A DNA stretch of 41,522 bases from NCBI GenBank assembly GCA_003156805.1, contig PMHV01000013.1, positions 122,864-164,385 of the forward strand. The letters run 5' to 3'. Numbering within the stretch: position 1 is the first letter of the stretch; the number at the start of each line of letters is the position of its first letter. This DNA is from Acidobacteriaceae bacterium (GTDB lineage: Bacteria > Acidobacteriota > Terriglobia > Terriglobales > Acidobacteriaceae). Positions 34,608-40,532 of the stretch are shown piece by piece. The notes under the pieces were generated by a model. The model was given only the letters and a program-made list of their open reading frames with translations, had not been told where the DNA came from and ran no database searches. Both the position numbers and the translations under genes were made by a program.

Positions 34608-35021
34608 CTAGAGTTCGAGGGTTATCAGATTCAAGAGTTCACCGGCGCTCACAACCTGGGTAACTCCAAGTTGGTTCCTCGGAAAATCTTTCTTATTGCC
34701 TGTAACTATGAAATCTGCCCGTGCCGTTAGCGCGCAGGCCATGAACTCGTCATCCTTGGGGTCGGGAGAAATACCGGAAAGCCGGGCAGGGCGCACAAGC
34801 TCGCCCTGGAGCTGAAGCAGGTCGATGAGCGCGGTGATTTCATCCTGCGAAAAGGCAAACTTGGGCCGCGCCAGCACCTCCGAGTATTCCTTCAGCACGG
34901 CGCGAGAAAAGCAAGGCCGCACCAGCCCCTGCTTGACGGCCAGCAGCAGCAGGGCTTCATTGCCGGAAGGCGAGATCAGGGCCGATACGAGGACATTCGT
35001 ATCAATCACAGCCCGAATCAT
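34608..35021 (-). CDS. PIN-domain toxin (VapC-like)
   Basis: This is a 137-residue PIN-fold ribonuclease of the COG1569 type, the likely toxin of a type II pair. MIRAVIDTNVLVSALISPSGNEA gives the first metal-binding Asp (D7) and the DTN motif. Further acidic residues lie in LKEYSEVLARPKF and SPDPKDDEFMACAL, and a late Asp in ADFIVTGNKKDF. All expected positions are filled, so it should be active. Its ATG overlaps the antitoxin stop by 4 bases (ATGA), meaning coupled translation. RNA targets of such toxins vary and cannot be read here. Confidence 0.9.
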   Translation of the reverse strand: MIRAVIDTNVLVSALISPSGNEALLLLAVKQGLVRPCFSRAVLKEYSEVLARPKFAFSQDEITALIDLLQLQGELVRPARLSGISPDPKDDEFMACALTARADFIVTGNKKDFPRNQLGVTQVVSAGELLNLITLEL

Positions 35022-35290
35022 TTTTTCTTCTTGCGCCTGTACGCCTTAATCTCGGCGTCGATCTCCCTCGGAGTCAGCTTGTCCAGGCCACGTCGCCTTG
35101 CGTCTGCCCAGGCTTTCTCCAGCCACTTCGGCGGCGGCGCGACGGTCTTGATGAAATCCTCGACGCTCATGATGACCACGGCGGGCTCTCCCCGCCGGTC
35201 TATGACAAACCGCTCGTTGTTCTCGACGGCGCGGTTCATAATCTGTCCGAACTGCGTGCGGGCAACATGGGCATCAACCCGGCGTTCCAT
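35018..35290 (-). CDS. Phd/YefM-family antitoxin
   Basis: This is a 90-residue antitoxin. The N-terminal part (DAHVARTQFGQIMNRAVENNERFVIDRRGEPAVVIMSVEDF) has the Phd/YefM fold that dimerises and binds the operator. The basic C-terminal part (KWLEKAWADARRRGLDKLTPREIDAEIKAYRRKKKK) should block the PIN toxin. It is followed with a 4-base overlap by the toxin gene. GGAG about 9 bases before the ATG at 35290 supports this start. An AATCAATTGATT palindrome at 35302-35313, just upstream, is a likely self-regulation site. Confidence 0.88.
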   Translation of the reverse strand: MERRVDAHVARTQFGQIMNRAVENNERFVIDRRGEPAVVIMSVEDFIKTVAPPPKWLEKAWADARRRGLDKLTPREIDAEIKAYRRKKKK

Positions 35291-35330: not shown

Positions 35331-35645
35331 ATCATGAAATCATCGCCTCGTCGAGAGGGAGGACACTTACACCACACTTCTTCGTGCAAACTGCATAATG
35401 CCATCGGCGGGGGCATCCGTCCGTCGAAGGGAATGCCGCACACAAGCTTGCCAAGCAGCACTGAGCGTCGACGAGTGCCACGAGGCCCATTTGCCGACGC
35501 TTTCTCTTCGCCCTACGATTTTCCTGCCGACATTTCGGCACTCGCCTAACCCCATCCAGCCCAACCGCTTGCCGCCGACCGGCTATAGCTTCAAGATGTT
35601 TTTCCGAGATTTCCGAGTTTTTCACAGTGTTCCGGTAGAATCGCA
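35331..35645. other. Intergenic region upstream of trpD
   Basis: No gene is supported here. The last 40 bases are richer in T and contain a possible -10 box TAGAAT at 35636-35641 without a clear -35 box, directly before the palindromes. The remainder is GC-rich and shows no clear structure. Confidence 0.4.
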
Positions 35646-35703
35646 CCAATGTTCCCATGGGAACATTGGCGTGATGTTCCCATGGGAACACTTTGTACGT
35701 ACA
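35646..35703 (+). promoter_or_regulatory. Palindromic operator pair before trpD
   Basis: Two perfect palindromes share the core GTTCCCATGGGAAC. The first is 24 bp long (35646-35669), the second 16 bp (35675-35690), with centres 25 bases apart. A 10-bp palindrome TGTACGTACA (35694-35703) follows, ending one base before the trpD ATG at 35705. They overlap the expected transcription start and ribosome binding region, so a bound repressor could block trpD. The binding protein is not known. Confidence 0.7.
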
Positions 35704-35704
35704 T

Positions 35705-36793
35705 ATGATCCTCGACGCCCTCCATCGCATCGCCAACCACGGCCAGTCGCTGGCGCGCGCGGAGGCTCGCGAAGCGATGGCCGAAGTGCTCGCAGGAAAA
35801 TGCACCGACGCGCAGATCGCCGCGCTGCTCGTGGCCTTGCGCATGAAAGGCGAGACCGTGGAAGAAATTGTCGGCTTCGCCGAAGCCATCCGCGCTGCGG
35901 CTGCTCCTTTTCCGAACCTGGACGCAAACGCGCTGGGCAAACGCGCCGAGGCCGAAGCGATCGCAGTGAGCGGCACGAGCCGCGACGCGCTCGCCGATTC
36001 GTCTCTGATCGACACCAGCGGCACCGGCGGCGATGCCAGCGGAACCTTCAATATTTCGACGGCCACTGCGTTCGTTACCGCAGGCGCAGGCGTGCGCGTG
36101 GCCAAGCACGGCAACCGCAGCATCAGTTCGAAATGCGGATCGGCCGACGTGATGGAAGCCCTGGGAGTGAACATCCAATTATCGCCGGAGCGCGCCGCGC
36201 AATGCCTGCGCGAAGTTGGCATCTGCTTTTTGTACGCGCCGAATCTGCATCCCGCGATGAAGCAGGTGCAAGCGGTGCGCCGCGAATTGCGTCTGCGCAC
36301 CATGTTCAACCTGCTCGGTCCGCTGACCAATCCGGTGCGAGCGTCGGGCCAAGTCGTGGGCGTGTATTCCATCGAACTGGTCGAGAAGTTGGCCGAGGTG
36401 CTCAGCATGTTGGGAGTGCATCGCGCGCTCGTCGTGCATGGACTCGACGGGTTGGATGAGATCACGATCACCGGCCCGACGCGCATCGCCGAAGCGCGCG
36501 ACGGAACAATTCGCACGTACGAAGTTACGCCAGAAGAATTTGGCGTGCCGCGCGCGACGCTGGCGGAAATCTCCGGCGGCGATGCGAGCGACAATGCCGC
36601 CATCATTCGCGCAATGCTCAGCGGAAAAAAGTCGCCGCATCGCGATGTGGTTCTGCTGAACTCAGCGGCAGCGCTAGTCGCGGCCGCGCGCGCCAATCAC
36701 TTGGCGGAGGCGATTCCGCTGGCGGCGCAGTCAATTGATTCCGGAGCGGCTGCTGCCAAATTGGAGGCTTTGGTTCGCTTCACGTGCACGTAA
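35705..36793 (+). CDS. trpD: Anthranilate phosphoribosyltransferase
   Basis: TrpD joins anthranilate with PRPP, the second step of tryptophan synthesis. [25 protein letters not shown] begins the helical domain. The PRPP and metal sites are [21 protein letters not shown] and [21 protein letters not shown], and [11 protein letters not shown] is also typical. A somewhat long acidic stretch (about residues 62-96) follows the FAEAIRAAA helix. At 362 residues it is slightly long but complete. The ATG at 35705 is used rather than a TTG at 35693. No other trp gene is adjacent and there is no clear Shine-Dalgarno sequence, because the leader is filled by palindromes. Confidence 0.95.
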
Positions 36794-40298: not shown

Positions 40299-40532
40299 GA
40301 GGGTATCCGAGTCGGACGTGCGGGGGTGAATATAAAAAAGGCGGCTGAGCGGGATTCGTATCCCGGCGAGCTGCTAGGGCAGCTCTCCCAGTCGCAAACA
40401 ATATTATATCGTCGGGCCGGCCTTCAGCACGGACTGCTTGCACTGTGGCCGCGTCCGACCCGAGCGCGAGACGCCTCGGGACAGCCGGCAAGATGCCGGC
40501 GCTACCGTCCGCTGGGCGCGGGGGCACGGCGT
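40299..40532. other. Gap between ffh and the peroxiredoxin-like gene
   Basis: On the minus strand two compact hairpins occur in a row (arms GAGCTG/CAGCTC and CGGGAT/ATCCCG, about 40386-40345), followed about ten bases later by a T-run at 40341-40336. They may end the ffh transcript. They also look faintly like tRNA arms, but no acceptor stem can be formed. A GCCGGC-AAGAT-GCCGGC hairpin repeat lies near 40485-40501. Confidence 0.45.

Follow-up and report, generated by a model that had tools for sequence, protein, structure and literature searches.

The twin palindromes in the leader of trpD, in a window of an Acidobacteriaceae genome (the window being the whole 41,522-nt stretch of DNA that was analysed), are predicted with high confidence to be divergent parS sites that belong to a dispersed array and would be read by the only ParB protein detected in this genome. 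The parS form found here appears to have a species-specific centre and to occur in about fifty copies, compared with the usual few near the replication origin, and many sites of the array are tied to conserved intergenic repeats. The features of the trpD leader are as follows (window coordinates):

35583–35649, plus strand: upstream block ("type-3" module), CTATAGCTT..TTCCGAG..CACAGTGTTCCGGTAGAATCGC
35636–35641, plus strand: possible -10 box TAGAAT, a resemblance to the consensus only
35646–35669, no strand: parS-like site 1, a perfect 24-bp palindrome CCAATGTTCCCATGGGAACATTGG, with the 16-bp parS unit at 35650–35665
35675–35690, no strand: parS-like site 2, a 16-bp palindrome TGTTCCCATGGGAACA
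35651–35664 and 35676–35689: the 14-bp cores GTTCCCATGGGAAC
35694–35703, no strand: palindrome TGTACGTACA, separated by a single base from the trpD ATG (35705)
35705–36793, plus strand: trpD, anthranilate phosphoribosyltransferase (TIGR01245, 412 bits vs a cut-off of 199.05)

Direct reading confirmed the arrangement described in the earlier note on this DNA, i.e. palindromes of 24 and 16 bp with a common 14-bp core and centres 25 bp apart, followed by a third, 10-bp palindrome just before the ATG. This third palindrome resembles a cut-down version of the box TTTTGTAC..TGTAYGTACA, which trails many parS sites and characterizes the type-1 repeats described below. The TAGAAT candidate was not reported by the promoter scan; its counterpart in the trpD leaders of five relatives (G366, G367, G382, G388 and G389) is TAAAAT. 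Scanning of the window for GTTCCCATGGGAAC with up to 3 mismatches identified just the two trpD sites, and shuffled windows contained at least two such loose matches in 50 out of 100 cases, so the significance of the palindromes derives from their exact identity and from the counts in the genome. These were obtained for the genome from which the window originates (G000; 5.03 Mb in 75 unordered contigs, 95% complete, the window being located on contig C46), where GTTCCCATGGGAAC is present in 51 copies per strand with up to one mismatch (38 exact and 13 with one mismatch; as the core is palindromic, both strands report identical places), vs 0 for the reversed pattern, in agreement with the earlier claim that a chance origin is very unlikely.

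Fifty of the 51 sites were read, in 29 loci that make up 30 places: trpD, the parAB locus and 28 others. All 50 are located outside the genes predicted by a simple gene caller, which marked 77% of the loci as coding. With up to 2 mismatches allowed, there are 21 pairs of neighbouring sites no more than 60 bp apart, among them 17 with a spacing of 24–28 bp and 10 with a spacing of exactly 26 bp, the commonest one genome-wide; a 24–28 bp pair is present at 15 of the 30 places. LexA-type boxes presumably differ from the trpD palindromes in their spacing. The exact twin pattern had no match in the contig collection, from which own or very near records are possibly excluded. A known RNA family was considered and rejected, as Rfam searches of 13 of the 29 loci at the gathering threshold returned one tRNA and one DUF3800-VI match only. 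The DUF3800-VI RNA (RF02915, 38 bits vs a gathering score of 35) is located at 40342–40394 on the minus strand of the window (L024:9706–9758).

It was proposed in the earlier note that the palindromes are the operator of a repressor controlling tryptophan synthesis. One part of this proposal is retained, namely that a symmetric (dimeric) DNA-binding protein is likely to have genuine, paired sites here, while the dedicated trp repressor, i.e. an unassigned factor that would bind to the twin palindromes and block trpD, is very improbable. Such a repressor would agree with the location of the sites over the likely transcription start and with the equivalent position of the site in G366, G367 and G388, and the position ahead of a trp gene is also that of the known trp operators (TrpR box, attenuator). 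However, copies of GTTCCCATGGGAAC are found at the 28 other places that were read, with the highest density between rsmG and parA-parB; the core is not specific to trp genes. The trp operators differ from the sites described here also in the copy number and distribution and, as we assume for the TrpR box, in sequence. A trp operator was rejected as a candidate: it would imply sites at trp genes only, whereas the genome has 51 sites, and the 50 that were read are spread over 30 places.

The trpD leaders of the relatives point in the same direction. Out of 42 genomes of the genus with a trpD match, 30 leaders were compared: an exact GTTCCNNNNGGAAC site is present in 4 of them (G000, G366, G367 and G388), a site with one mismatch in G382, a decayed site, judged by eye, in G389, and none in the remaining 24. 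Thus, with respect to the concern of the earlier note that the core could be absent before trpD in close relatives, it is present in G366, yet most leaders of the genus lack it. G366 maintains the gene order and has one site 15 bp ahead of the trpD ATG. The genes for a Phd/YefM antitoxin (35018–35290, minus strand) and a PIN-domain toxin (34608–35021, minus strand) adjoin trpD in the window, and the order of this toxin-antitoxin pair beside trpD is kept in G366. The core found before trpD is found also at the own parAB locus in G366 (one of 5 sites, with CATG in the centre; the others are mixed) and in G388 (2 of 4 sites), and the trpD core of G382, GGAA, fits none of the cores at its own parAB. 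No ParB was found in G367, so its trpD core is not comparable with the own parAB. All six site-bearing leaders (G000, G366, G367, G388, G382 and G389) have GTTCCGGTARAATCGC in common. In G366 a block similar to the type-3 module precedes two further parS sites (L103 and L104), away from its single trpD; the type-3 block may therefore belong to a repeat rather than to a trp promoter.

The sites are densest in locus L020: the stretch that separates rsmG from parA-parB, which is the usual location of parS, is filled with seven near-copies, of which 4 are exact, 2 deviate at one position and 1 deviates at two positions. The sequence of the 24-bp palindrome (site 1) of trpD recurs there, between rsmG and parA. 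A palindromic site of about 16 bp is thus clustered at the own parA-parB locus. Since copies are present at 28 other places and are densest at rsmG/parA-parB, ParB is the most likely protein to recognize them, which makes parS the most likely identity of the site. According to an excerpt of PMC7022226, par operons and most parS sites are within the origin domain. The ParB protein of this genome exhibits all three expected domains, N-terminal (PF02195), HTH (PF17762) and C-terminal dimer domain (PF23552), each above the cut-off, and PF02195 has one match in the genome (95% complete), i.e. a single ParB was detected. The sites share with those of the chromosomal ParABS systems the 16-bp palindrome, the TGTT..AACA ends, the cluster at rsmG/parA-parB, the single detected ParB and the presence of several copies. 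They differ from canonical parS (TGTTNCACGTGAAACA), with which the outer TGTT/AACA agree, in the inner bases (CCCATGGG here vs TCACGTGA); the inner CACGTG of canonical parS is missing from the parAB locus L020, where a search for TGTTTCACGTGAAACA with up to 3 mismatches had no match. They differ also in the presence of 51 dispersed copies, with a 24–28 bp pair at about half of the places and many linked to repeats.

Comparison with relatives suggests that the divergence concerns the centre of the site. Among 297 genomes drawn from the phylum, TGTTCCCATGGGAACA was found in one, namely the own genome, and it occurs also in G366, G389 and G400, none of which is within this draw. Upstream of parA in the relatives the same outer palindrome is present, mostly with a different centre: the inner four bases vary by species and are ACGT in the family form, CATG here, and AACY, TGCA or TTAA elsewhere. 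The family form GTTCCACGTGGAAC was identified in 69 of 80 genomes of the family, in 1–15 copies, and is absent from the own genome, while TGTTCCNNNNGGAACA was identified in 42 of 45 genomes of the genus (reversed control: 0 or 1), with 51 copies here, 39 in G372, 24 in G407, 22 in both G084 and G375, 20 in G374, 18 in G366 and 0–13 in the others. In the 48 parB loci compared (32 from the genus and 16 from the rest of the family), GTTCCNNNNGGAAC sites are present upstream of parB in 29 and 15 cases, respectively; the loci without an upstream site are those of G385, G386 (short contig), G407 and G303 (short contig), and a longer stretch read in G407 revealed three sites beside parA. The centres were sorted by hand into the classes CATG, ACGT, AACY and TNNA, several loci being mixed (e.g. 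G366, G370 and G384).

In 7 genomes with listed sites both at parAB and elsewhere, the inner four bases of these two groups of sites were compared (for G372 with 9 of its non-parAB sites, among the matches listed). The true pairing of genomes gave a mean similarity of 2.96 of 4, the best of all 5040 pairings (mean 1.71); the weakest genome is G366, where the mixed sites at parAB have a similarity of 1.90 to the remaining sites of this genome and of 1.97 to those of G000. The inner bases at parAB thus predict those elsewhere in the same genome, a pattern to which descent and copying of repeats can contribute. In G374, most of the 20 sites keep the family-type ACGT centre (L215, L235, L238, L241 and L244); these sites are already spread over many contigs, and the genome has 24 type-2 copies.

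Many parS sites stand at the start of a conserved intergenic element, and about 22 of the 30 places read (counted by eye) are located at one end of a conserved type-1 or type-2 repeat. In type 1, the box TTTTGTAC..TGTAYGTACA is followed by TAAGTGGAAC and GGGAGTTAGG, and the trpD leader looks like a cut-down form of this element. A loose motif lists 28 type-1 places, some of them duplicate or doubtful, and the alignments were made of hand-picked own copies, 18 in one and 12 in another. A potential hairpin CCTTGAG..CTCAAGG, with weak covariation support, is located downstream of the parS pair in type-1 copies (L016, L018, L019, L021, L023, L026, L028, L029, L032, L033, L034 and L037); the RNA structure predicted for 12 type-1 sequences comprises 19 pairs, in 6 of which both partners are changed in at least one sequence, and has a covariation term of -0.08.

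Type 2 is a conserved intergenic block of about 190 bp with parS at one end (examples are L287–L316, e.g. L287 in G084 and L289 in G000), which contains TAAGTTGTTGATTC, GGGTTAGGCTGTGGAAGAAATGTCTACTTTCGAGG and the palindrome GTCTACTAAAGTAGAC; several copies end in a sigma-70-like TTGACA-N16-TATAAG, as read by eye. The alignment of type 2 comprises 26 of 35 rows from several species, the other nine (duplicate entries for paired sites, rows that are short or incomplete, and two of doubtful status) being excluded, and no consensus base pair was predicted for these 26 sequences. The type-2 model R1, which excludes parS and was trained on the 26 copies, every one of them starting at parS, identified 52 matches in five genomes, and 44 of these (training copies included) carry an exact parS where it is expected; without the 22 training copies in these genomes the count is 22 of 30. 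Two more have a site with one mismatch (L292 and L309), and one of the six others, on contig C8 of G366, has parS at the opposite end. Of 30 type-2 loci, 28 had a recognisable box, and no gene common to these was found downstream of the elements; a few pairs of loci share flanking proteins (e.g. L289, L290 and L303).

These observations bring up the possibility that the palindromes are passengers of a REP- or MITE-like dispersed intergenic repeat that happens to end in a chance palindrome, and that no binding protein is needed. Apart from the association of the sites with the ends of repeats, the close similarity of the copies in L025 and L027 is compatible with this scenario, and spread by copying would likewise render the inner bases uniform in any one genome. 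We nevertheless regard it as unlikely, because the parAB cluster is absent among the type-1 and type-2 places found, and because the inner four bases shift by species on the background of constant outer bases, also at the orthologous place before trpD. The core is thus scattered, as the earlier note had envisaged, but not in the manner of a random generic repeat.

If the sites are parS, as we prefer, their distribution in one relative runs counter to the expectation of an origin-proximal parS. In this relative, G407 (5.0 Mb in about 20 contigs), contig C4 has 10 of the 24 sites, between 76 kb and 2.04 Mb, and the remaining ones are distributed over six further contigs. The sites on C4 alone span 1.97 Mb, so the 24 sites do not all fall within 20% of the chromosome, and the location of most sites in the origin-proximal ~20% was not observed in this genome. 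The rule itself, that parS is found mostly in the origin region, is given in excerpts of PMC7022226 and of the review PMC7333895, and the latter excerpt describes parS inserted far from the origin as poorly tolerated in P. aeruginosa and Caulobacter.

The DNA-contact region of ParB was aligned to Caulobacter ParB (chain 6t1f_A), with the offset checked by the identity of four Caulobacter letters; R281, Y287, K292 and S309 align with Caulobacter positions 173, 179, 184 and 201. According to excerpts of PMC7383237, the residue opposite base 6 accounts for part of the specificity for NBS vs parS, the base pair by which parS and NBS differ lies opposite Caulobacter G201, position 184 is "permissive", and extant ParB proteins have R173 and G201 as "absolutely conserved" residues. 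All 44 rows have R at position 173 and either K or R at position 184, while position 201 in the 29 rows of the genus is S (20), A (8) or D (1) and never G, and in the 15 other family rows it is S (11), G (3) or T (1). The column of L313 of G000 exhibits L in 5 of 5 CATG rows, V in 10 of 14 ACGT rows, and E in 11 of 11 AACY and 12 of 14 TNNA rows; however, such correlations between residue and core are confounded by descent, since the centre classes cluster on the ParB tree with few switches (9 changes in a quick tree of 45 rows, with a minimum of 3, and none of 200 shuffles as low).

As to the mechanism, by analogy with known ParB proteins, a ParB dimer would bind to the 16-bp palindrome, close as a CTP-dependent clamp and slide onto adjacent DNA, both binding and clamp loading being predicted here. 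The sites between rsmG and parA would form the usual centromere cluster, and the dispersed array, which may serve nucleoid order or SMC loading, would consist of the other places, at least 28 in addition to trpD, roughly half of which hold a pair at 24–28 bp. ParB probably loads also at trpD, where the pair appears to overlie the likely transcription start and the leader, just past the possible -10 box, and bound ParB would lower or time the expression of trpD. Repression of trpD is plausible because the pair is just downstream of the possible -10 box, but any effect of ParB on trpD is proposed tentatively, at rather less than an even chance. In P. aeruginosa, an excerpt of PMC5521831 reports that the expression of genes next to parS3 and parS4 increases in the absence of ParB and that their promoters drop under excess ParB, provided that parS is intact; its introduction mentions no significant change without Spo0J in B. 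subtilis.

The scattered sites could also be ParB sites with a job other than segregation, such as nucleoid organisation, division control or gene regulation through the single ParB, in the manner of Noc and NBS. This would refine the parS explanation, with which it is compatible, and we consider it somewhat unlikely. It would account for the range of the sites on one contig of G407, and the poor tolerance of origin-distant parS elsewhere (excerpt of PMC7333895) points to another function or an altered system in this genus; for regulation, the ParB of P. aeruginosa represses promoters beside parS3 and parS4 (excerpt of PMC5521831). The ParB of this genome lacks the Noc-type residues, with R281 at Caulobacter position 173, where Noc has Q, and S309 at position 201, where Noc has R, and its score with the Noc model TIGR04285 is 199.8, below the cut-off of 315. 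Noc/NBS resembles the system predicted here in scattered palindromes read by a ParB-type protein. NBS has TATT as the outer bases; the sites described here have TGTT, the Noc residues are missing and a single ParB was detected.

Another relative of the array is the half-parS of P. aeruginosa, where, according to an excerpt of PMC7022226, ParB binds to the half-site GTTCCAC and hundreds of half-sites are bound genome-wide. The GTTCCAC half is contained within the family-wide GTTCCACGTGGAAC, but the scattered sites in our genome are full palindromes, located outside called genes and with a species-specific centre.

It is possible, though short of an even chance, that the centromere of this genus is a fast-changing genome-wide system, with species-specific centres, tens of copies within elements of types 1, 2 and 3, copies that change together with ParB, and a reading surface freed at position 201. 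The ParB–parS specificity is described as conserved across bacteria in an excerpt of PMC7383237; in contrast, one acidobacterial genus exhibits several parS centres, G at position 201 in 0 of 29 ParB rows and up to 51 sites per genome. No paper on parS in this acidobacterial group was found in the open-licence literature, among the matches listed. The analysis suggests ParB as the probable partner of a trpD leader that would otherwise be puzzling, and the genus offers natural ParB–parS pairs for asking how a centromere sequence changes without loss of function; the same pairs bear on the question of why parS elsewhere stays close to the origin. If the proposed system is real, ParB would be a chromosome-wide organiser as well as a regulator of promoters such as that of trpD, and the genus would provide a bacterial counterpart of the rapidly evolving centromeres of eukaryotes.
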